Positions 2,301-13,481 of a stretch of 64,000 bases of DNA are shown piece by piece. The number at the start of each line of letters is the position of its first letter. The first letter of the stretch is position 1. The position numbers were made by a program, and so were the translations under genes. Source of the stretch: Kitasatospora cinereorecta (GTDB lineage: Bacteria > Actinomycetota > Actinomycetes > Streptomycetales > Streptomycetaceae); contig NZ_JAMZDX010000001.1 of assembly GCF_024172095.1 (NCBI RefSeq), positions 1,191,001-1,255,000 of the forward strand. The letters are read 5' to 3'. The notes under the pieces were generated by a model. That model saw only the letters and a list, made by a program, of their open reading frames with translations, did not search any database and had not been told where the DNA came from.

Positions 2301-2341
2301 CCGGGCCCGCCCGGTCCGGTAATCGGACGGGGCGGGCCCGG
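2301..2341. terminator. Strong hairpin ending the PknG-FHA operon
   Basis: An 18-base stem with one mismatch (left arm begins CCGGGCCCGCCC at 2301, right arm ends GGCGGGCCCGG at 2341) encloses loop GTAAT (2319-2323). It lies about 28 bases beyond the FHA stop codon and ahead of the separate ABC exporter unit. Confidence 0.8.
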
Positions 2342-2368: not shown

Positions 2369-3637
2369 TCAGGAGCGGTACAGCGTGATGGTGGTCCAGG
2401 CGCCGACGTGGATCCGGTCGCCGTCGGCGAGGGGGATGGCGGTGTGCGGCGGCACGGCGTCGGCCCCGCCGTTGACGGTGGTGCCGTTGGTGGAGTCCTG
2501 GTCCACCAGCACCCAGCTGCCGTCCGCCTGCTCGGCCAGCAGGGCGTGCTGGTGCGAGGCGCCCGGGTCCTCCGGCGGCACCGACAGGTCGATCTCCGGC
2601 ACCGTGCCGCGGTGCTGGCTGCGCCGGCCGATCCGCAGCTGGCCGCGCCCGGTCAGCGGGATCCGGCGCTCCGGGCAGTACGGCGGGAAGAACAGTCCGG
2701 CCGCCTCGGGGCCGCTGCGCGCCATCATGTCGGTGAAGTAGTCGCGGTCGGCCGAGACCACGGCGATCCAGGTGGCCCGGACCGGCGGGGCGGGCGGGGC
2801 CTGCGGGGTCTGCTGCCCGGCCTCCCCGGGCGGCGCGAGCCGGAACGAGGTACCGAAGGAGTCGCCGGGCGCGGCGTACACCGGGCCGGTCCGCTCGAAG
2901 CCGTCGCCGTCGGGGAAGCCGACGGCCTGCCCCGGCTCGAACGGCGACTTGTCGAAGGACATCGGCGCCGGCGGCGGGCCGGGCGGAGCCGGCGCCGCGG
3001 GCGCACCGTGCATGCCGGGGGCACCGAGCCCGCCGTGGCCGCCGGGAGCGCCGTGGCCGCCGTGACCACCGGGAGCGCCCGGAGCGGGCGGCATCGGCGC
3101 CGGGGGCATCGGCGCGGGCGGCATCTGGGTCGGCGGCATCCCCGCGCCGTGGCCCGGCATCGGGGGGACCTGGCCGTGCGGGACCTGGCTGTGCGGGACC
3201 TGGCCGTGCGGGACCGGACCGGGCTGGGCGGGCTGGGCGGGCGGGGGGAAGCCGTAGCCGCCGTGCCCGGGGGAGTGGGCCCGCGGCGCCTGCGGGGCGA
3301 GGTCGAAGTCGTACCCGCACTCCTCGCAGTACCGCCCGGTCTGCGGGGTCCGGCAGATCGGGCAGGTGACCAGGCCGGCGGTCATGTCGGGAACCGGGGG
3401 GTGCTGGGGCATCGGTGCCTGCGGGGGCATCGGCGCGCCGTGGCCGCCCATCGCGCCGCCGCCGTGGCCGCCGTGGCCGCCCATCGGACCGTGCGAGGGC
3501 GCCGGGCCGGCCGGCGGAGCCGGGGGCGGCGGGGGCGTGCCGGGGATGTGCAGCCCGGGCGGCGGCGTCATCGGGAAGCCGCAGTAATCGCACCAGTCCT
3601 CGGCCTGCGACTCGTGGCCCCTAGGGCAGATCGGCAT
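2369..3637 (-). CDS. Zinc-ribbon and FHA domain protein
   Basis: This 422-aa cytoplasmic protein has three parts. Two short Cys4 zinc ribbons are separated by linker (CPRGHES...CDYCG at residues 3-19; CPIC...CEECG near 90). A long Pro/Gly/Met/His-rich linker follows, with repeats such as PPAPM and PHGQVP. A C-terminal FHA domain (about 340-415) has RIGRR, GASHQHA and STNGTTVNG, the residues that bind phosphothreonine. ATG 3637 is preferred over GTG 3649 because GGGGGA sits four bases upstream of it. As the last gene of the pknG operon it is a candidate reader of PknG phosphorylation, analogous to mycobacterial GarA. I see no GarA-like phosphorylatable N-terminal motif. Confidence 0.85.
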   Translation of the reverse strand: MPICPRGHESQAEDWCDYCGFPMTPPPGLHIPGTPPPPPAPPAGPAPSHGPMGGHGGHGGGAMGGHGAPMPPQAPMPQHPPVPDMTAGLVTCPICRTPQTGRYCEECGYDFDLAPQAPRAHSPGHGGYGFPPPAQPAQPGPVPHGQVPHSQVPHGQVPPMPGHGAGMPPTQMPPAPMPPAPMPPAPGAPGGHGGHGAPGGHGGLGAPGMHGAPAAPAPPGPPPAPMSFDKSPFEPGQAVGFPDGDGFERTGPVYAAPGDSFGTSFRLAPPGEAGQQTPQAPPAPPVRATWIAVVSADRDYFTDMMARSGPEAAGLFFPPYCPERRIPLTGRGQLRIGRRSQHRGTVPEIDLSVPPEDPGASHQHALLAEQADGSWVLVDQDSTNGTTVNGGADAVPPHTAIPLADGDRIHVGAWTTITLYRS

Positions 3638-3683
3638 CAGGTCCCCCACATTTCAGCAGGTCCGGCCCCGGTGGGTTCCCGGG

Positions 3684-5024
3684 TCACTTCTTCTTCACGC
3701 GCACGGTCACGGTCGACCGGGAGTCGAGTGCCATCGAGTCGGCCGCCTCCACGTGCTTACGGAACCGAACCGTACCTTCCTTCGGGTCGACGACGTCGAC
3801 CACCTTCTCCAGCAGCTTCAGCGTGCCGTCGTTTCCGCCCGCGTGGGCGAGCTGGACGGCCCGGCCGAGCTTCGCGGTGGCGGTGGTGAAGTCGCCGGAG
3901 CGGTGGGCGGCGAGCCCCTCCTGGATGGAGGAGGCCAGCTCGGCCTGGCCGGTGTAGTGGGCGACCTGCGGGCTGATCCGGGTGGAGGAGGCCAGGTCGT
4001 CGGTCCACACCGCCATGACCAGCCCCTGGCCGAGCGTCTCCGCCGAGCCGTCGCCCTGCGGCAGCACCAGGCTGACCCGGGCGGCGAGCATCCGGCTGCC
4101 GAGCGCGGCCGGCTGGACCTCGACACAGACGTGGTAGTCGCGGCTCTCGTCGCCCCAGGAGCCGGTCGGGTAGTCGCCGGAGCGCGGGCCGGACTCGGTG
4201 CGGCGCTCGCTCAGGTCCTCGACCGCGGGTGCGACCTGCTTGACGTACTTCACCACAGCGTTGGCGGGGGTCCAGACCCGCAGCGCGATGTCGGCGACCT
4301 GCTTGCCCATCGCGCCGGCCATCATGGCGCGGAAGTCCTCGGCCAGGCCGGAGGGCTCGGCGACGATGTCCACGGTCCCCAGCAGGGCGGAGGAGACCTT
4401 GCGCAGCTCGGCGACGTCCCAGTCGGTGCCGACGCCGCGGCAGTCCGCGGTGAAGACCCCGGTGGCGGCGTCCAGGGCGCGCTGCAGGTCGGCGGGCTTC
4501 TCGTGCTCGTTCTTGCCGTCGGTGAGCAGGATGCCGTGCCGGATGCCGATGTCGGGGCGGGAGTCGAACAGCTGCCGGGCCTTGGTCAGCCAGGTGCCGA
4601 TCGCGGTGCCGCCGGCGGGGCTGAGCTTGCGCAGGGCCTGCTTGGCGTGGGCCCGGGTGTCCCGGTCGGCGGTGGCGAGCGTTCCGTTGCCGGGATAGAT
4701 CTCGGCGGCCTCGTGGGTGCCGGCCACCACGGCGAAGGCGACGCCGTCGCGCAGGGTGTCGATGGCGGCGGCGGTGGCCTCCCGGGCGTTGCGCATCTTG
4801 CTGGCCGGGTAGTCCATCGAGCCGGAGCAGTCGATCATGATCACCACGGCGGCGTCGGCGCCCGGGCCGCCGGTGGCACCGCCCGGACGCCCGCCCAGGG
4901 TGCCGCCACCGGTGGCGGTGACCGTCACGATCGCGTTGACCTCCCGGGCGCCGTCGGCGAGGTACTCGTTCTGGAATATGTCGACGTCGAACACGGGCCC
5001 GGTGGGCCTGGACAACGAGGCCAT
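3684..5024 (-). CDS. von Willebrand factor A domain protein
   Basis: This 446-aa protein has no signal peptide. Its VWA domain carries a complete metal-ion-dependent adhesion site: MIDCSGSMDYP (DxSxS) near residue 85, the Thr of AGGTAIGTWL, and LTDGKNEH. The C-terminal half is beta-rich and ends in a small domain with the motif GRAVQLAHAGGNDGTLKLLEKVVDVVD. It lies between the PP2C and FHA genes with short gaps. VWA proteins usually mediate metal-dependent protein contacts, so a scaffold or adaptor role for the phosphosignalling module is likely. The partner is unknown. Confidence 0.85.
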   Translation of the reverse strand: MASLSRPTGPVFDVDIFQNEYLADGAREVNAIVTVTATGGGTLGGRPGGATGGPGADAAVVIMIDCSGSMDYPASKMRNAREATAAAIDTLRDGVAFAVVAGTHEAAEIYPGNGTLATADRDTRAHAKQALRKLSPAGGTAIGTWLTKARQLFDSRPDIGIRHGILLTDGKNEHEKPADLQRALDAATGVFTADCRGVGTDWDVAELRKVSSALLGTVDIVAEPSGLAEDFRAMMAGAMGKQVADIALRVWTPANAVVKYVKQVAPAVEDLSERRTESGPRSGDYPTGSWGDESRDYHVCVEVQPAALGSRMLAARVSLVLPQGDGSAETLGQGLVMAVWTDDLASSTRISPQVAHYTGQAELASSIQEGLAAHRSGDFTTATAKLGRAVQLAHAGGNDGTLKLLEKVVDVVDPKEGTVRFRKHVEAADSMALDSRSTVTVRVKKK

Positions 5025-5039
5025 GCGGAGGAACTCCTG

Positions 5040-6239
5040 TCAGTCGGTGAGTGCGGTTCCGGGTGCGTGGACGGGAAGGTCGGGCAGGGTGTCGTCGTGC
5101 CGCGGCGCCGGCAGCGGCAGGTCGATCAGGGTGGCCTCGTACGCGGCCGGCTCCGCGGTTCGGGCGGCACCCGCCGCCGCGGACGCCCCGCCGCCGGCCG
5201 CGGGCGGGGTGATCGGCAGCACCGCGACGGTGATGTTGTCGTGGCCGCCCGCGGTGACCGCGAAGTCCACCAGCGACCGGGCGGCGGCCAGCGGCTCGGT
5301 CCGGGCGTCGGCCCGGACGAAGAAGGCCAGGTCGGTCGCGGCCTCGGCGTAGTTCCACAGGCCGTCGGTGCAGATCAGCACCACCCCGGGCACGTGCGGG
5401 GTGAAGCTGACGGTGTGCGGGAGGAGTTCCTCGGCGTCCGCGCCGAGCCAGCCGGTGATGGCGTGCGCCCGCGGGTCCGCGTACGCCTCGGCCTCCTTCA
5501 TCAGCCCGGCCGCCACCATCCGGGCGGCCCAGGAGTCGTCCTCGGTCAGCCGGTACGGCTCGGCCGACTCGCGGTCGTCCGGGATCCAGTACGCGCGGGT
5601 GTCGCCGACCCAGCCGATGGTGACCAGGCCGCCGGCCGCGATCGCGCTGACGTAGGTGCAGGCCGGGGCGTTGATGTGCCCGGCGGTCTGCGGGGTCTTC
5701 CCGTCGTACGCGAGGTCGGTGACGGCCTGCCCGGCGACGGTGATCGCGCCGTGCATGGCCGCCGTCGGGTCGGTGCCGCGCTCCAGGGCGGTCAGCAGGG
5801 ACTCCGACGCGGCGTCCACCGCCGTCGCGGAGGCCTCGTCGGGCCGCGCGGAGGAGGAGACGCCGTCGCAGACCACCGCGATCACGGCGGGCTCGCCGCC
5901 CGGCAGCGAGGTGGCGGCGATGGTGAAGGCGTCCTCGTTGCGGTGGTGGCGCAGACCGCGGTCGGTGACTCCGGCGACGCCGGTGAGCGAGCGCTCCTGG
6001 TGGTCACGCGGGGCGGGCTGCGCCCGGCCGCAGGCCTCGCAGTAGCCGTCCGCCGTGAGCTCGGCGGCGCCGCAGTGCGCGCAGGCCCCGGTGGCCGGTG
6101 CCGCCGGGCCGCCGACCGCGGTGGGCGGGCCGTCCACCATGGTGGGCGGCCCGTTCCGGCCGGCGCCGCAGGCACCGCAGAAGGCGTCCTCCGGGTCCAA
6201 CGGCTCGGCACAGCTGGGGCACACGGTCTGCTGCGGCAT
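5040..6239 (-). CDS. PP2C-family protein serine/threonine phosphatase with zinc ribbons
   Basis: This 399-aa protein begins with two Cys4 ribbons (CPSC...CGACG at residues 7-25; CAHCG...CEACG at about 54-71). A PP2C phosphatase domain follows (about 80-345). Metal-binding motifs are intact: TDRGLRHHRNEDA, VCDGVSSS, GWVGDTRAYW, CTDGLWN and GGHDNITV. The C-terminal tail is low complexity. Its start codon lies three bases after the pknG stop, so it is very probably co-translated with the kinase and removes the phosphates PknG adds. The paired ribbons resemble those of PknG and the FHA protein. Confidence 0.92.
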   Translation of the reverse strand: MPQQTVCPSCAEPLDPEDAFCGACGAGRNGPPTMVDGPPTAVGGPAAPATGACAHCGAAELTADGYCEACGRAQPAPRDHQERSLTGVAGVTDRGLRHHRNEDAFTIAATSLPGGEPAVIAVVCDGVSSSARPDEASATAVDAASESLLTALERGTDPTAAMHGAITVAGQAVTDLAYDGKTPQTAGHINAPACTYVSAIAAGGLVTIGWVGDTRAYWIPDDRESAEPYRLTEDDSWAARMVAAGLMKEAEAYADPRAHAITGWLGADAEELLPHTVSFTPHVPGVVLICTDGLWNYAEAATDLAFFVRADARTEPLAAARSLVDFAVTAGGHDNITVAVLPITPPAAGGGASAAAGAARTAEPAAYEATLIDLPLPAPRHDDTLPDLPVHAPGTALTD

Positions 6240-6242
6240 TGC

Positions 6243-8885
6243 TCACACCCACGTCCGGGGGCGGGCCCGGTTCGCCCGCTCCACCATCTCGATCCTCGAC
6301 TCGGCCCGGTCGGACAACCGCGCCAACACTCGATAGGAGTGTTCCAGGGCGAGGCGCAGTTCCCGCTCGGTGGCGGGATGTCCGAGGACGGTCCGCGTGG
6401 CGGGCCGTCCCGCCGGTCCCTTCCCCGTCGACGCCTCGGCAACCGCCGATCCGGACGGCTCCGTTGATCCGGATGTTGCCGTTGATCCGGGCGTCGCCGC
6501 CGATCCGGACGTTGCCCCCGAGCCGGGCTTCGCCGCCGTTCCAGAACCGGCCGCACCGGTCGCACCGGTCGCACCGGTCGCACCGGTCGCACCGGCAGCA
6601 CCGGCAGCACCGCCCGCCCCGCCCTCGCCCGGCATGCCCGCCAGCACCCAGCCCAGCGCCGAGTCCAGGACCTCGACGGCGAGTTCCTCGCGCCGACGGG
6701 CGTCCAGGGTCAGCGCGGCCAGCTGCTCCGAGCAGCGGCTGAGCTCGGGGCCGAGCGGCTCCTCGGCGGCCCGGCCGCGCAGCCGGGCCCGGACCGCGCC
6801 GATCCGGGCGGCGGTGAAGTGGGTGGACGCCTCCGGCACCAGTTCCAGCGCGGCGACCGCGCCGGGCCGGTCGCCGGCCGCCAGCCGGACCCGGGCCAGG
6901 CCGAACGCGGCGCTGACGTACGACCGGTCGGTGGTGGCGACCAGCCGGTGGAACTCGGTGGCGTCCTCGTGGTTGTCCAGCAGTTCGGCGCAGAGCGCGA
7001 GCGCCAGCTTGGGCGCGGGCTCGCCGGGGAAGGCGTCGTAGATCGCGTCGAAGGACTCGGCGGCGGCCTGCGCCCGCCCGGCGGCCAGGGCGGCGAGGCC
7101 GCGGTACCAGACCACCCGCCAGTCGTCGGCGTGCTCGCTCTCCAGCTTCCCGAGCTCCTGGCCGGCCCGGTCGTGGTCGCCGAGTTCGAGGTGGGCGCGC
7201 AGCCGGCGCAGCCCCAGCTCCGCCGAGTCGCCCGGCGCCGCGGCCAGGGCGGTCAGCGCGTCGGCCGGGTCTCCGGCGAATAGGGCGGCGAGGAAGCCCG
7301 CGTTGGGGTCGGCCGGGTCGGTCCGGGGGACCGGCAGGGCCAGCGCGGCGGCCGCCGGGTCGATCGGGCCGGTGGCCAATTCGTTGTCGAAGACCCGCAG
7401 TTCCGGCCCGAAGAGGGTGGAGGGGGCGGGCCGGGGACGGCCGTCCTGGAGCGCGAGGACCTCGCGCAGCACGCCGGTCAGCTGGTCGGCCATCTCCTCG
7501 GCGGAGGAGAAGCGGCGGGCCGGGTCCGGGTCGGTGGCGCGCACCAGCAGCCGGTAGTACGACTCGTAGCGGGCGAACAGCTCGACCTGCTCCGGGCCGG
7601 GCAGTTCGTGCCGGTAGGTGGTGGAGTAGCCCTGGAAGTCGAAGGTGAGCACGGCCAGCGTGCGGGCCACGGTGTACAGGTCGGAGGCGGCCGACGGCCC
7701 GTCGGTGGCGATCTCCGGGGCCTGGTAGCCGTGGGTGCCGAAGATCGGGCCGTCGTCGTCGAGGCGGCGGACCGCGCCCATGTCGATGATCTTGAGCGAG
7801 TCCTCGCTCTGGATCACGTTGTCTATCTTGAAGTCGCAGTAGACCAGCCCGCGGCTGTGCAGGTAGCCGAGCGCGGGCAGCGCCTCCAGCGCGTACGCGA
7901 GCGCCTGCTCGACCGGCAGCGGGTCGCGCCGACCGTCCGGGGTGCGCCGCTCGTTGGCGATGTCCTTGAGCGACTTGCCGCCGACGTACTCCATCACGAT
8001 GTAGCCGTCGGTGGAGCCGGTCCGGGCGTCCGGGTGCTCGGCGAAGTTGATGATGCGGACGATGTTCGGGTGGTCGACCTCGGCCAGGAAGCGGCGCTCG
8101 GCGACGGCCGCGGCCAGCGCGTCCTCGTCCCCGGTGTCCAGCAGGCCCTTGAGCACGACCCACTTGTCGTTGACCCGGCGGTCGATCGCCAGGTAGATCC
8201 AGCCCATCCCGCCGTGTGCCAGGCAGCCCATCACCTCGTACTGGCCGCCGACCAGGTCGCCGCGGCGCAGCTTCGGGGTGAAGGAGTAGACGGTTCCGCA
8301 CTTGGTGCAGAAGCCCTCCGGCCGGCCCGGCCGGCCGCCGCGCTCGCGGCCGACCTCGGTGCTGCACTTCGAGCAGTACCGCTTGTGCTCGGGCACCTCC
8401 GCGTTCTCCAGGACGGCCGTGCTCGGGTCGAGCGCGGCGACCGGCGGCACGCTGACCAGGCCGGCGCCCAGGTTGCCGCGCCGGGCGGTGCCGGTGGAGC
8501 CGCGGGAGCTGAGCACCGAGACCGAACGGCCGCTGCCGGTCCGGGAGGAGCGGTGCGAGCGGGAGCGGCCGGACATGGTCCGCACCGAGCCGGAGCGGCT
8601 GGAGCCCGGCGAGGAGAGCCGGGGCGCGGGCACCTGTGGTGCGCCGCCGCCCGCCGCCGGTTCCAGCCCGCACTCGTCGCAGAACCCGTCGGGGTCGATG
8701 GTGCCGGTGCAGTCCCTGGCACAGCGGTCACCCGGCCCGCCCGGACCCCCACCCGGCCCGCTCCCAGCGCCCCCTCCTGCGACCGGGCCCGCCGACGCCG
8801 GTTCCGGTGCGAGTCCGCACTCGTCGCAGAACCCGTCCGGGTCGATGGTGCCGGTGCAGTCCGGCTGTGCGCACGCCTCAGCCAT
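6243..8885 (-). CDS. pknG: PknG-like serine/threonine protein kinase with TPR domain
   Basis: This 880-aa soluble kinase has a near-duplicated N-terminal segment CTGTIDPDGFCDEC (residues 10-23 and 59-72). A Ser/Arg-rich linker and a PknG-type rubredoxin knuckle follow (C171, C174, C193, C196). The kinase domain (about 215-470) has glycine loop AHGGMG, K246, the PknG hallmark YCDFK with D351, and IIDMG in place of DFG. TPR-like helices run to about residue 745. A Gly-Ala-Thr linker (about 755-815) separates them from a final helix. Mycobacterial PknG senses amino acids through GlnH/GlnX and controls glutamate metabolism; glnH and glnX lie upstream here. The start overlaps the preceding gene by 8 bp. 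Confidence 0.93.
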   Translation of the reverse strand: MAEACAQPDCTGTIDPDGFCDECGLAPEPASAGPVAGGGAGSGPGGGPGGPGDRCARDCTGTIDPDGFCDECGLEPAAGGGAPQVPAPRLSSPGSSRSGSVRTMSGRSRSHRSSRTGSGRSVSVLSSRGSTGTARRGNLGAGLVSVPPVAALDPSTAVLENAEVPEHKRYCSKCSTEVGRERGGRPGRPEGFCTKCGTVYSFTPKLRRGDLVGGQYEVMGCLAHGGMGWIYLAIDRRVNDKWVVLKGLLDTGDEDALAAAVAERRFLAEVDHPNIVRIINFAEHPDARTGSTDGYIVMEYVGGKSLKDIANERRTPDGRRDPLPVEQALAYALEALPALGYLHSRGLVYCDFKIDNVIQSEDSLKIIDMGAVRRLDDDGPIFGTHGYQAPEIATDGPSAASDLYTVARTLAVLTFDFQGYSTTYRHELPGPEQVELFARYESYYRLLVRATDPDPARRFSSAEEMADQLTGVLREVLALQDGRPRPAPSTLFGPELRVFDNELATGPIDPAAAALALPVPRTDPADPNAGFLAALFAGDPADALTALAAAPGDSAELGLRRLRAHLELGDHDRAGQELGKLESEHADDWRVVWYRGLAALAAGRAQAAAESFDAIYDAFPGEPAPKLALALCAELLDNHEDATEFHRLVATTDRSYVSAAFGLARVRLAAGDRPGAVAALELVPEASTHFTAARIGAVRARLRGRAAEEPLGPELSRCSEQLAALTLDARRREELAVEVLDSALGWVLAGMPGEGGAGGAAGAAGATGATGATGATGAAGSGTAAKPGSGATSGSAATPGSTATSGSTEPSGSAVAEASTGKGPAGRPATRTVLGHPATERELRLALEHSYRVLARLSDRAESRIEMVERANRARPRTWV
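6553..6615. repeat. Seven 9-base tandem repeats inside pknG
   Basis: Seven consecutive 9-base units of GCACCGGTC or close variants (GCACCGGCA, GCACCGCCC) run in phase with the reading frame. On the coding strand they give the collagen-like GAT/GAA run of the PknG C-terminal linker. Copy number is likely to vary between strains. Confidence 0.9.
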
Positions 8886-10209
8886 CCGAGTCGTTCCCCC
8901 CGCTCGTCGCTTGTCTCTCCGGTGCGCGCAGCGCCTGCTGGAAGCGGGTGACCGCCTCCGCGGCGGCGCGCAGGTCGCACGGCGCGCTCCACAACAGCCA
9001 GCGCGCCTTCTCGAAACGCTCCACCACCACCGGGTCCTCGGCCAGGCCGAACCGGGCGGCCATCGCCTTGTACGCCTCCAGCCGGCCGCGCAGCTCGGCG
9101 CGGACGGCCAGCGGCTGGGCCACCTCGGTCAACGAGTGCCGGGCCCGGGTCAACTCCTTGGCGGCGGCGTCCTCCAGGGCGTCCAGCAGCTGCCCGAGCC
9201 GGTGCCACTGGCCGGTCTGCTGGTACTCCACCGCCAGGACGATCCGCTCCCGCAGCGCCGAGGCCGGTCCGGGCACCGCCGGGACCTCGGTGGACGCGAT
9301 CTTGGCCAGTACCTCGCCGCGGGCCCGGCGGGCCTCGGCCAGCGTGGCGTCGGCCCGCTGCAGCAGGTCGGCGACCTGCTGCAGCCGCTCGTGCGACTCG
9401 TCGCGCAGCCGCAGCAGCCCCTCCAACTCCACCCGGATGTCGTCCAGGTGGCGGCCGGCCCGGTCGAAGCCGGTGGTGTCCACCGCGCCGCTCGGCGAGG
9501 CCCAGGCGCTCGCCTCGGAGGCGGTGCCGCGCTGCGCCGGCACCCGGGCGGGCCGCCACAGGGCCAGCGGGTCGGCGAGCACCTCGGTGCGCAGCGCGGT
9601 CAGCTCCTCGGCCAGCCGGGTCAGGTCGTCGCCGAGCGGGTGGCCGCCGGGGCGGACCCCGACCGAGAGCGCCAGCATCTGCACCCGGCCCAGTTCGGCC
9701 AACAGCAGGTCTATCCGGGCGGGCAGCGCGGTCCAGACGGCGTCGGCGGCGTTGACCACCTCCAGCACGACGGCGTACCAGCCGTTCATCCGGTCCATCA
9801 GCTCGGTCAGCGTGACCCGCTCGACCAGCCGGACCTGGGCGCCCAGCTGGCCGACCGCTTCCGGCAGGTGACCGCCGGAGACGGTCACGGCGGCGCCGGT
9901 GAGCAGTTCGCTGAGTTCCGCCAGTTCGGCGCTGCCGGGCTTGCCGCGCCGGGCCCGGACGGCCCGGGCCGAGGCGAGCGCCTCCGCGTAGCGGTCGAAC
10001 AGCGCCCAGAGCAGCGCCAGCCCCTGTTCGGCGACGGCCCACCGCTCCTGGGTGCGCCCGGTCAGGGCGGCGCCGTCCAGCAGCCGCCGTCCCGGATGGT
10101 CCTGCAGGGAGAGCAGTGCCGCCTCGACGGCGTCGCGCTCCTCGCCGCGTCGGGTGAGGACGCGGTCCACCTCGTCCCGGCTCATCACCGGACCGGCCGT
10201 TCCTGCCAT
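8878..10209 (-). CDS. Uncharacterised helical protein of the PknG operon
   Basis: This 443-aa protein belongs to no family I can name. It is Ala/Leu/Arg/Glu-rich, has no signal peptide or membrane segment, and its periodicity suggests long helices and coiled coil almost throughout. Examples are the stretches near residues 235-275 (DDIRVELEGLLRLRDE) and 310-385. RBS GAGGAGG precedes the ATG by about nine bases, and its last codons overlap pknG by 8 bp. Its fixed position between glnH and pknG suggests a cytoplasmic adaptor linking the membrane sensor to the kinase. That role is inferred from position only. Confidence 0.8.
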   Translation of the reverse strand: MAGTAGPVMSRDEVDRVLTRRGEERDAVEAALLSLQDHPGRRLLDGAALTGRTQERWAVAEQGLALLWALFDRYAEALASARAVRARRGKPGSAELAELSELLTGAAVTVSGGHLPEAVGQLGAQVRLVERVTLTELMDRMNGWYAVVLEVVNAADAVWTALPARIDLLLAELGRVQMLALSVGVRPGGHPLGDDLTRLAEELTALRTEVLADPLALWRPARVPAQRGTASEASAWASPSGAVDTTGFDRAGRHLDDIRVELEGLLRLRDESHERLQQVADLLQRADATLAEARRARGEVLAKIASTEVPAVPGPASALRERIVLAVEYQQTGQWHRLGQLLDALEDAAAKELTRARHSLTEVAQPLAVRAELRGRLEAYKAMAARFGLAEDPVVVERFEKARWLLWSAPCDLRAAAEAVTRFQQALRAPERQATSGGNDSDG

Positions 10210-10371
10210 TGCGGGTCCTCCTCTCGGGCCTGGCGTACTGGCGGGCGGTTGCGCATTGACGGATTGTCGGTCACGAGGGCCGCGGCCGTGCCCCGTCGGC
10301 TGAAAGTCTCCCGGATGGCGGAGCGCGGACCCACGCCGGTACCGGGCTTTGACGCCCCCTTGACGATCGCG

Positions 10372-11313
10372 CTACGGCAGGTAGCCGTCCGGTGACGCTC
10401 CCATGGTCGGCGCGAGCCACCGGTCGTAGCTGGCCCGCCAGTCCCCGTTCGCCTTCCGCTCGGCCAGCACCTGGTTGACCCAGGCGACCAGGTCGGTGTC
10501 GGCCTGGTTCATCCCGACGCCCATGTAGCCGGGGGCGATGGTCTCCGGGACCAGCCGTACGGTCGGGTCCTGGGCGACCTGGGCGGCGGCCAGCACGTTG
10601 TCGGTGAGGGTGGCGTCCACCAGGCCCTGCTGCATCAGCACCAGGCAGTCCAGCTGGTTCTCCACCGTACGGACCTCCGCCGTGCCGCGGCCGTCCCGCT
10701 TCAGCTCGGCCTGGCTGGACGAGTTGTCGGCCACGCACGCGCGCTTGCCGCGCAGCGCCTCGGCGAACCCGGTCGCCTTCGCGGCGCGCGGCACCACGAG
10801 TTGCTGGGTGACCCGGAAGTACGGGGCGGAGAAGGCGATGTCCTTCTTCCGGTCGCAGGTGACGGACATGGTGCGCACCACCATGTCCACCTCGCCGCCC
10901 TTGATCGCGTCGATCCGCCGGGCGGTCGGCACGGTCTTCAGGGTCACCTTGTCCGGGTCGCCGAGGATCGACTTGGCGAGGGCGTGGACGAGGTCGATGT
11001 CGAAGCCCTCGATCCGGCCGGTCTGCGGGTTGCGGAAGCCCCAGTTGTAGCTGTTCTGGTCGACTCCCACCACCAGCGAGCCGCGTTCGCGGATCTTCCT
11101 GATCCGGGCGCCGTTCGGGTTCTTCGCCGGCGGTTCGCTGGCCGTCAGGTCGCAGCCGTCGTCCGCCATCGGGGCCAGCCCGGGGGCCGTCGAGGCCGTC
11201 CGGGGCGCCCCCGCGGGCACGCCCTGCGAGCTTCCGGCGCCCAGCGCTCCGGCGGCCAGCACCACGGCCGCCACCAGCGCCCTGGCCCGTACCGTCCGCA
11301 TGATCGGTGTCAT
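10372..11313 (-). CDS. glnH: GlnH-like glutamate/aspartate-binding protein
   Basis: This 313-aa protein is a family 3 (polar amino acid) solute-binding protein. A signal sequence (residues 1-25, AAVVLAAGALGAG) is followed by the binding fold: SLVVGVDQNSYNWGFRNP, GFDIDLVHALAKSI, and the KGGEVDMVVRTMSVTCDRKKDIAFS hinge region. The C-terminal lobe reads YMGVGMNQADTDLVAWVNQVL. No permease or ATPase gene is nearby, so it is probably a sensor rather than a transporter part, as shown for mycobacterial GlnH upstream of PknG. I find no lipobox Cys after the signal sequence, although homologues are usually lipoproteins. GGGGGGA lies eight bases before the ATG. Confidence 0.88.
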   Translation of the reverse strand: MTPIMRTVRARALVAAVVLAAGALGAGSSQGVPAGAPRTASTAPGLAPMADDGCDLTASEPPAKNPNGARIRKIRERGSLVVGVDQNSYNWGFRNPQTGRIEGFDIDLVHALAKSILGDPDKVTLKTVPTARRIDAIKGGEVDMVVRTMSVTCDRKKDIAFSAPYFRVTQQLVVPRAAKATGFAEALRGKRACVADNSSSQAELKRDGRGTAEVRTVENQLDCLVLMQQGLVDATLTDNVLAAAQVAQDPTVRLVPETIAPGYMGVGMNQADTDLVAWVNQVLAERKANGDWRASYDRWLAPTMGASPDGYLP

Positions 11314-11329
11314 CGTCCGTCCCCCCGTT

Positions 11330-12682
11330 CTACCGGTACTCGGCCAGCCGGCGGCCGATGCCGCGCAGCACTCCGCCGACCGCCAGCGCGGTCAGCACGG
11401 CCGCGGCCGCCGCGTACACCTCCAGGAAGCCGTCGACCCCGCCCGCGGCGGCCTCGAAGTCGTGCTGCTCGGCGGTGGCGGCCTCGGCCAGCTTCCGGTC
11501 CATGGTGGTGAACGCGGCGTCGGCCGTGTCGTTCCCGCCGGAGCTGAGCGTCCCCCGCAGGGCCGCGTCGTAGTCGCCCGCACTGTCCTTGTCGGCGGCC
11601 GCCCGGTGCCGGGACAGCCAGTCGGCGAAGGCCCGCTCGGCCTCGGCGGCGGGCCGCTCGGCGTCCGGACGGCCCGCGGCCACCGCGTGGCCGAAGGAAC
11701 CCGCCTGCGCGGCGGGCGCGTTCAGCGGGTCGACCAGGGCCGACCAGCGCTTGGTGTACGTGTCGGTGGAGCCGCGGGCGACCAGGTTGAGGTTCTCCGC
11801 CGCGTGGGCCTGCAGCGCGGCGATCCGGACGTGGTCGAGCTCCCGCAGCGGCTGGGACCCGTCGCGCCGGCTGGTCGCCAGCGCGGCGCCGGCGGACGCG
11901 GACGCCGCGGTCAGCCACACCACCGCCAGCAGGACCGCCGAGGTGGCGGTCAGCAGGCCGGTGTTGAACACCCGGTTGGTCCGCCGGAACAGCACCACCT
12001 GGTAGCGGACCAGCGCGCCCAGCGCCACCAGCCCGAGCAGCAGCGCGGCGACCGGGAAGGACGACGCGTCGCCGTGATCGGCGTCCAGCCGCCCGGACTC
12101 GGCGTCCACCAGGGACTGGGCCAGCGGCAGCATGGTGTCCTGCATCAGTGCCGAGGCGTACCGCAGATAGGCGCCGCCGAGCGGCAGCCCCTGCCGGTTG
12201 TCGGCCCGCGCCGTCTCCACCAGACCCGCGTAGCGCGGCAGTTGCCGGTTGAGCTCGGTGATCGGGCGCTGCGCCCCGGGGGACGAGCCGGTCCGTGCGG
12301 CGGCCTCCGAGAGCAGCCGGGAGGCAGTGGCCAGGTCGTCCTCGTACCGCTGCCGCACCGCGGCCGGCTCGTCGGCCGCGAGCAGGAAGCCGGCCGCCGC
12401 CGTGGTGTCCGCGTCGGCCAGCGAACGGTAGATCTCCGCCGCGTCCTGGCTCAGCGGCTCACTGCCCGAGACCACCCGGCCGGCGGCTGTCGCCCGTGTG
12501 CTCACCTGCTCCACGGCCACCGCGCCGAACAGCACGACCAGCGCGGCCAGGGCCGCCCCGGCCACCCGCAGCCGGCCGGGCGGCGTGCTCGCCGCCTGCC
12601 GAAGCCGGGCCGAGGCCCCGCGTCTTGCTCCGGGAACGGTCGCGACCGTCCCCTGGCTCTCCGTGACCACCGGTGTCGCCAC
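11330..12682 (-). CDS. glnX: GlnX-like four-helix membrane sensor protein
   Basis: This 450-aa membrane protein has four predicted membrane helices: near residues 25-48 (VAGAALAALVVLFGAVAV), two around the middle (FPVAALLLGLVALGAL and LLTATSAVLLAVVWL), and one at the C-terminus (YAAAAAVLTALAVGGVL). Two helical extracytoplasmic domains of about 160 and 150 residues separate them. This matches mycobacterial GlnX, which passes the ligand signal of GlnH to PknG. GTG 12682 (VATPVVTESQG) is chosen because GGGAGGG lies just upstream; the longer open frame crosses an unrelated divergent promoter region. It is the first gene of the seven-gene operon. Confidence 0.82.
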   Translation of the reverse strand: MATPVVTESQGTVATVPGARRGASARLRQAASTPPGRLRVAGAALAALVVLFGAVAVEQVSTRATAAGRVVSGSEPLSQDAAEIYRSLADADTTAAAGFLLAADEPAAVRQRYEDDLATASRLLSEAAARTGSSPGAQRPITELNRQLPRYAGLVETARADNRQGLPLGGAYLRYASALMQDTMLPLAQSLVDAESGRLDADHGDASSFPVAALLLGLVALGALVRYQVVLFRRTNRVFNTGLLTATSAVLLAVVWLTAASASAGAALATSRRDGSQPLRELDHVRIAALQAHAAENLNLVARGSTDTYTKRWSALVDPLNAPAAQAGSFGHAVAAGRPDAERPAAEAERAFADWLSRHRAAADKDSAGDYDAALRGTLSSGGNDTADAAFTTMDRKLAEAATAEQHDFEAAAGGVDGFLEVYAAAAAVLTALAVGGVLRGIGRRLAEYR

Positions 12683-12905
12683 CGCCCCCACCCTCCCCTG
12701 TGGCCCGACCCTGTCGGGGCGGGCCTCGCCCGCAGCAGAAGTATGGCTGCGGGTGGCGACGATCACACCTGAGTTGCGCCGTACTTGAGGTTCCGGTTCC
12801 GCCCGGCCCGCGTCGGCCCGGGTGTGGTGCGACTGCGACGACGCCGACCGGCGGCCCGCCGGTTCCGGGCGCGGGCGGCGGAGCGCGGATTTGTAGCATG
12901 GGGGC

Positions 12906-13481
12906 ATGCGCCTGATCGGAACCGTCTCCCCGGACCGCCCCCTGCTCGTCGTCGCCGTCCGTGAGGAGGCCGCCCACCTGGACGAGCGGCTGCCGGTCCT
13001 GCTCACCGGGATCGGGAAGATCAACGCGACCGCCGCGCTGGCCACCGTCCTGGCCCGCGGCGAGCGCCCCTCGGAGATCGTCAACCTGGGTACCGCCGGC
13101 GCCCTGAAGTCCGGCTGGGCCGGGACCCACGAGATCGCCCGGGTGCTGCAGCACGACATCGACACCCCCGCACTGGAGGCCCTCACCGGCCGCAGCTACG
13201 GCGCTCCGCTCACCCTCGGCAGCGCGCCCGGTCCGGTCCTCGCCACCGGCGACCTGTTCGTCTCGGACGAGGAGGCCCGCGCCCGCCTCGCCCGCAGCGC
13301 CGACCTGGTCGACATGGAGGGCTACGCGGTGGCCGTGGTCGCCCGGCGCGCCGAGCTGCCGGTCCGGCTGGTCAAGCACGTCAGCGACGAGGCCGGCGAG
13401 GGCGCCGGCAACAGCTGGCGCGACGCGGTGGACGGCTGCGCCAAGATCCTCGCCGAGTGGGTGGCCGAGCACCTCCACTGA
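12906..13481 (+). CDS. Nucleoside phosphorylase-superfamily hydrolase (MTA/SAH nucleosidase-like)
   Basis: This 191-aa protein has PNP/UDP phosphorylase fold motifs: LLTGIGKINATAALA (phosphate/ribose loop), VNLGTAGALKSG, a substrate segment ending VDMEGYAVA (the Met-Glu pair that contacts the ribose hydroxyls), and VRLVKHVSDEA with the catalytic Asp. It is shorter than the usual 230-aa MTA/SAH nucleosidases. Cleavage of methylthioadenosine, adenosylhomocysteine or a similar purine nucleoside is likely; the exact substrate is not readable. It is divergent from glnX, with the shared promoter region in 12683-12905. Confidence 0.8.
   Translation: MRLIGTVSPDRPLLVVAVREEAAHLDERLPVLLTGIGKINATAALATVLARGERPSEIVNLGTAGALKSGWAGTHEIARVLQHDIDTPALEALTGRSYGAPLTLGSAPGPVLATGDLFVSDEEARARLARSADLVDMEGYAVAVVARRAELPVRLVKHVSDEAGEGAGNSWRDAVDGCAKILAEWVAEHLH

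Follow-up and report, generated by a model that had tools for sequence, protein, structure and literature searches.

A seven-gene PknG operon in Kitasatospora cinereorecta and a possible ArnAB-like output of the kinase

The protein kinase PknG is known for its part in tuberculosis virulence and from industrial producers of glutamate and antibiotics, and its best-known target is GarA. In Mycobacterium and Corynebacterium, the kinase is encoded in a GlnX-GlnH-PknG operon of three genes (PMC6069109). What, then, is the purpose of a pknG operon that additionally encodes a phosphatase, a VWA protein, an FHA protein and a helical protein of 443 amino acids (hel443)? Such an operon is found in a stretch of 64,000 nt of Kitasatospora cinereorecta (GCF_024172095.1, NZ_JAMZDX010000001.1, positions 1,191,001-1,255,000 of the forward strand), which is referred to as the window (Table 1). 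A first-pass annotation had described the seven genes as one sensor-kinase operon. This is borne out by the analysis presented here, but not the view of the extra genes as additions, the role of GarA for the FHA protein, the scaffold label of the VWA protein or the adaptor function of hel443.

Table 1. Features of the pknG operon and its borders (positions in the window)
Feature	Position	Strand	Description
glnX	11330-12682	-	GTG start; operon gene 1; membrane relay with helical sensory domains; NF058618 5.5e-125, CHASE3 weak
glnH	10372-11313	-	family-3 solute-binding protein, predicted acidic amino-acid sensor; SBP_bac_3 7e-29
hel443	8878-10209	-	443 aa, all-helical model; Pfam/NCBIfam: none
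pknG	6243-8885	-	PknG_rubred 7e-26, Pkinase 2e-26, PknG_TPR 2e-83
PP2C Ser/Thr phosphatase	5040-6239	-	N-terminal double zinc ribbon; PP2C_2 5e-11, DZR 3.5e-6, Stp1_PP2C 2e-30 (below cut-off)
VWA protein	3684-5024	-	VWA_3 and VWA_3_C; ArnB/Sec23-24-like three-domain fold (model), invariant MIDAS
VWA C-tail residues 437-440 (S..T), candidate phospho-acceptor motif	3705-3716	-	
FHA protein	2369-3649	-	two N-terminal zinc-ribbon motifs, Pro/Gly-rich linker, C-terminal FHA domain; FHA 4e-12
GC hairpin	2301-2341	-	likely terminator without U-tract, directly past the operon end
Intergenic region to divergent PNP_UDP_1 gene	12683-12905	.	likely site of the operon promoter, judged from gene positions

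The seven ORFs were all confirmed on the minus strand, with the small gaps and overlaps that had been reported; in the direction of transcription, from glnX to the FHA gene, the distances are 16, 162, -8, 3, 15 and 34 bp. GC3 values lie between 0.93 and 0.97, and the ORFs are therefore regarded as coding. The strong hairpin proposed for the end of the operon has a minimum free energy of -46.2 kcal/mol (z -4.7), which was reached by none of 200 shuffled sequences, though it lacks the U-tract. A consensus terminator scan did not list this hairpin, and a consensus promoter scan found no motif in the intergenic region upstream of glnX, both scans being uninformative in DNA with a GC content of 73%. 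The upstream neighbour is a divergent gene of the phosphorylase superfamily (12906-13481, plus strand; Pfam PF01048), which leaves 223 bp for the promoter, and an ABC ATPase/permease pair is encoded past the hairpin. From the spacing and the conservation of the genes, we infer that the operon is one transcription unit. In Streptomyces, the gap between the VWA and FHA genes is longer (median of 297 bp, based on automatic start calling), and an internal promoter is therefore possible there.

The genes glnX and glnH are adjacent, an order that is repeated in relatives, and the best solved relative of GlnH is the M. tuberculosis protein (6H1U/6H20, E 1e-48). The kinase has the rubredoxin-kinase-TPR architecture of PknG with all three profiles over their cut-offs; its closest solved structure is M. 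tuberculosis PknG (2PZI, E 4e-160), with which VVLKG, YCDFK and IDMG align, and the catalytic Lys and Asp residues are present. The match to 2PZI, the catalytic residues and the co-occurrence of the genes across families agree with the earlier description of a GlnX/GlnH sensor and a true PknG whose genes form one compact operon with those of the phosphatase, the VWA protein and the FHA protein. The GlnH of the window has no lipobox cysteine (ALGAGSS), and the relatives in the Streptomycetaceae are seemingly alike, with start sites that are not curated; in other families, GlnH has LLAGC/VAACG at this place. In the window genome, the sensor may not be a lipoprotein.

The operon resembles that of Mycobacterium and Corynebacterium in the families and the order of sensor, relay and kinase and in the presence of GarA in the genome; however, it contains four further genes encoding hel443, PP2C, VWA and FHA proteins, and PknG carries two extra N-terminal zinc-ribbon motifs (CxxC). 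The claim that the phosphatase, the VWA protein and the 443-aa protein are additions is thus true relative to the mycobacterial locus, but not otherwise, as the seven-gene form is widespread. In the Streptomycetaceae, 60 of the 80 loci, which were found through the phosphatase and called automatically, have the complete set of seven genes with order and strand unchanged; the other loci are mostly short contigs or missed calls, and nearly all loci that are long enough are complete. The nearest relatives are Kitasatospora. The class-wide sample comprises 396 genomes, around 153 of which encode PknG, and around 100 neighbourhoods were taken and annotated with custom-built profiles. The seven-gene set occurs in the Streptomycetaceae, in Catenulispora and in at least five other families, in one of which it is reordered. 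The gene order of the window is shared by Catenulispora and the families f15, f20, f35 and f10, with hel443 matches being weak or absent in f10, f20 and f35, and the order in f14 is hel443-PknG-PP2C-VWA-FHA-GlnX-GlnH. Across families, the genes of the phosphatase, the VWA protein and the FHA protein are thus conserved together with pknG, contrary to the lack of co-conservation that would have refuted the first-pass annotation. Strong VWA matches were found in 101 of the 153 PknG genomes (counted by hand), and intact ones in none of about 240 genomes without PknG.

The mycobacterial family (f4, assigned from its short operon) encodes GlnX-GlnH-PknG alone, except for two genomes, G314 and G245, which possess an extra complete seven-gene operon beside the short one. 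In an unrooted PknG tree, the kinases of these two seven-gene operons form the sister group of the PknGs from short operons (99, starred); elsewhere in the tree, short operons are scattered exceptions (five changes). Judged from these gene neighbourhoods, the seven-gene form is the common form outside the mycobacterial family and the short operon is the exception. Because of the sister position of the seven-gene copies in f4, the short mycobacterial operon is more likely a reduced form, and the simplest reading is that the widespread seven-gene form is old and was cut down in the mycobacterial lineage. The mycobacterial locus, on which PknG is usually studied, would then probably be a reduced case that keeps only the first half of the system. 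Some f4 genomes contain extra PknG copies with no partner genes nearby (L089, L090, L153, L157, L160).

Which function could the additional genes have? The VWA protein, which had been labelled a metal-dependent scaffold, indeed has a VWA domain with an invariant metal site (MIDAS residues D65, S67, S69, T140 and D169 in 18 aligned members), but the label is too vague. In the AlphaFold model (pLDDT 88.7), the vWA domain is inserted in a beta-sandwich, which is followed by a helix bundle. The best Foldseek match is 4FX5 (53% identity, TM 0.90), followed by the ArnA/ArnB complex 8S05 (TM 0.63-0.65, E 1e-18 to 1e-20), the ArnB paralogue 5A8J and then Sec24/Sec23, and the sequence profile also reaches 8S05 over the vWA domain (E 1e-7). 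According to the model, the VWA protein has the three-domain fold of ArnB and Sec23/Sec24. The arrangement of vWA domain, beta-sandwich and helices is shared with the Sec23/Sec24 core of COPII; however, these proteins form a vesicle coat and have no kinase operon, and their gelsolin domain is absent in the Kitasatospora protein. The structure 4FX5 is that of the VWA protein caci_2163 of Catenulispora acidiphila, and a 100% match locates its gene in genome G398, where this orthologue of the window protein is encoded in an identical seven-gene operon (L186). In the accessible parts of the archaeal papers, ArnB is compared with 4FX5 by structure only and the operon of 4FX5 is not mentioned (PMC12852372, PMC6509490). 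The fold of the VWA protein and the operon context of its solved relative are new here; an orphan crystal structure thereby gains a gene context, and the fold of an archaeal starvation switch and of the COPII coat would be tied to bacterial nutrient signalling.

In Sulfolobus, the C-terminal region of ArnB is a substrate of ArnC, a kinase containing TPR-like repeats, PP2A removes the phosphorylation, and ArnA binds ArnB by its zinc finger and FHA domain in a nutrient-dependent manner (PMC12852372, PMC6509490). The Kitasatospora locus shares with ArnA-ArnB the vWA domain in a beta-sandwich with a C-terminal helix bundle, the adjacent zinc-ribbon/FHA gene, a TPR-type kinase with a phosphatase, and a nutrient signal, which is predicted here from the genes. 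The FHA protein combines a complete phospho-Thr pocket with two zinc-ribbon motifs, which is the architecture of ArnA (invariant are CxxGH..CxxCG, CPxC..CExC and, in the FHA domain, G341, S365, N388 and G389); a PDB search with the FHA protein gave no sequence match to ArnA. In contrast to the archaeal system, this one is bacterial, its kinase, phosphatase and amino-acid sensor share an operon, its FHA protein carries two zinc-ribbon motifs, and its phosphatase is of the PP2C and not of the PP2A type. An ArnAB-like module is the best interpretation of the VWA-FHA pair. Since the phosphatase is a PP2C and binding is only predicted, we propose that the pair works like ArnAB and do not claim membership. 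No open-access paper was found that links PknG with ArnB, Sec23 or an operon of VWA, PP2C and FHA genes.

Based on these similarities, the following mechanism can be envisaged. Acidic amino acids would be sensed by GlnH outside the cell and GlnX in the membrane, resulting in the activation of cytoplasmic PknG, which would phosphorylate the co-encoded VWA protein in its C-terminal helix/tail region, besides its known target GarA that is encoded elsewhere. Phosphorylated VWA protein would be tightly bound by the ArnA-like FHA protein, whose zinc ribbon would dock on the fold and whose FHA domain would read the phospho-Thr. The VWA-FHA complex would report the amino-acid supply to some output, the co-encoded PP2C would reset the switch, and the hel443-PP2C-FHA half can persist in the absence of the kinase. 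Phosphorylation, binding partners and output are predicted, and for the model as a whole, a PknG/PP2C-controlled, ArnAB-like phospho-switch beside the GarA branch, our confidence comes close to an even chance without reaching it. We are slightly more hesitant about the wider proposal that such an ArnAB/Sec23-24-like switch, wired to PknG and PP2C, is ancestral in actinobacteria, was lost in the model organisms, mycobacteria and corynebacteria, and is an overlooked second output branch of PknG. Most families with PknG, the mycobacterial one excepted, conserve an operon with a phosphatase and an ArnAB-like pair; this points to such a second output, which can be tested in Streptomyces.

A candidate phosphorylation site is found in the C-terminal tail of the VWA protein, where S437 and T440 are invariant in the alignment. 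The column of the tail Thr is conserved in all 124 VWA proteins that have an FHA neighbour versus 13 of 30 that have none, and a zinc ribbon in cis on the VWA protein is present in none of the former (0/124) versus 17 of 26 that lack both FHA and PP2C neighbours. When kinship is taken into account, six independent FHA changes (pairs) remain, about 2.7 of which are in the predicted direction and none in the opposite one (p 0.25); with so few independent changes behind the counts, the association between tail Thr and FHA is suggestive only. Residues 431-440 are modelled at pLDDT 89, and the invariant Ser and Thr may be structural rather than phospho-acceptors.

The pattern of gene loss shows which of the genes can do without each other. 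GlnX, GlnH, PknG and VWA are lost in five loci (G396/L015, G121/L148, G240/L206, G268/L207 and G461/L209), mostly leaving out-of-frame or truncated remnants, and in the same five loci hel443, PP2C and FHA genes are open and the active motifs of PP2C and FHA are kept. A hel443 tree implies at least three separate losses, four according to the best tree, and as the lost genes are interspersed with the retained ones, a single deletion cannot explain the loss. In Streptomyces, on the other hand, there are kinase-VWA loci that lack PP2C, FHA and GlnH. The operon thus consists of two separable halves, one comprising sensor, kinase and VWA and the other hel443, PP2C and FHA. The VWA gene alone is lost in G454 and missing or fragmentary in L165 and L166, with the rest being retained; a further apparent loss in G439 was dismissed as a contig end. 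Since FHA and PP2C are intact where VWA and PknG are lost, the VWA protein is not the sole ligand of the FHA protein, which should have at least one other, and PP2C and FHA are probably used by another kinase as well.

The all-helical AlphaFold2 model of hel443 has a pLDDT of 88.7, and a comparison of this fold with the PDB gave nothing better than E 0.44; profile matches were chance coiled-coil hits and were discarded. That hel443 is purely an adaptor of PknG, as had been suggested, is doubtful because it stays intact where pknG is lost.

Could the operon simply consist of two neighbouring systems on one transcript? The first half would then sense amino acids and act on GarA, and the second half would be a general reader and eraser for other Ser/Thr kinases such as PknA/PknB, contact between VWA and FHA not being obligatory. 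Both the repeated loss of exactly the first half and the kinase-VWA loci fit this explanation. However, in some loci, PP2C, VWA and FHA genes form a set at a distance from PknG (L184, L179), the adjacency of VWA and FHA is kept together with the tail Thr in every intact FHA locus, and the halves are interleaved in gene order, which would be needless for merely adjacent systems. We regard this explanation as rather unlikely, and as less probable than the ArnAB-like switch. In f15, there are PP2C-VWA-FHA sets that lie apart from an intact PknG gene (L179, L184, L183, L177), and some of their VWA genes are decayed.

A further explanation, which follows the picture of the first-pass annotation, is that the operon is simply the PknG-GarA glutamate circuit known from mycobacteria and that its FHA protein takes the part of GarA. 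GlnX, GlnH and PknG do match the mycobacterial proteins, and the FHA protein is co-encoded with them. However, an orthologue of GarA (59% identity) with the ETTS motif (AETTST) is encoded on another contig of the same genome (G000:C5:192177-192611, L127), and the operon's FHA protein has a different architecture and is not among the GarA matches. As canonical GarA is encoded elsewhere, the FHA protein was ruled out as GarA, and we consider this explanation improbable. The GarA orthologue has an N-terminal zinc ribbon of its own, as do PknG, PP2C and the FHA protein of the operon.

Kinase, PP2C, vWA and FHA proteins also act together in the PpkA-PppA-Fha1 branch of type VI secretion. PpkA is a kinase-vWA fusion (PMC1262709), whereas the VWA protein is separate here and the operon contains GlnX/GlnH; the operon's FHA protein reaches 18 bits with the TagH/Fha1-type model TIGR03354, whose cut-off is 120. 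Such a secretion branch, or a defence or inter-bacterial conflict system like TerY-P or the GAP1-N2 triads, is highly improbable: triads of kinase, PP2C and vWA are known from conflict systems (PMC7159879), a trypsin-domain ORF adjoins class III relatives and there is a VWA-CHAT fusion, but the operon is retained vertically and almost universally at one locus in the Streptomycetaceae, it includes the GlnX/GlnH sensor, and PADLOC gives general kinase domains only. In PADLOC, VWA, FHA and hel443 matched no family, PP2C gave 0.0057 and PknG hit general kinase models only, and a defence system was set aside as no PADLOC system matched.

Further relatives show other combinations of these domains. 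Second kinase-VWA loci with a PknG-like kinase are found in Streptomyces and relatives (L189-L200, L203, L204); the VWA proteins of these loci mostly carry a C-terminal zinc ribbon, and a GlnX-like membrane protein is often present. In L190, the preceding protein combines a trypsin domain with a weakly hel443-like region. A close relative of the VWA protein carries a CHAT (caspase-like) domain as a fusion and has no adjoining PknG (L202:7837-10824, minus strand), and in Catenulispora, kinase, VWA and a DnaJ-like domain are joined in one fusion protein (L188:8413-11325, plus strand, and L187).
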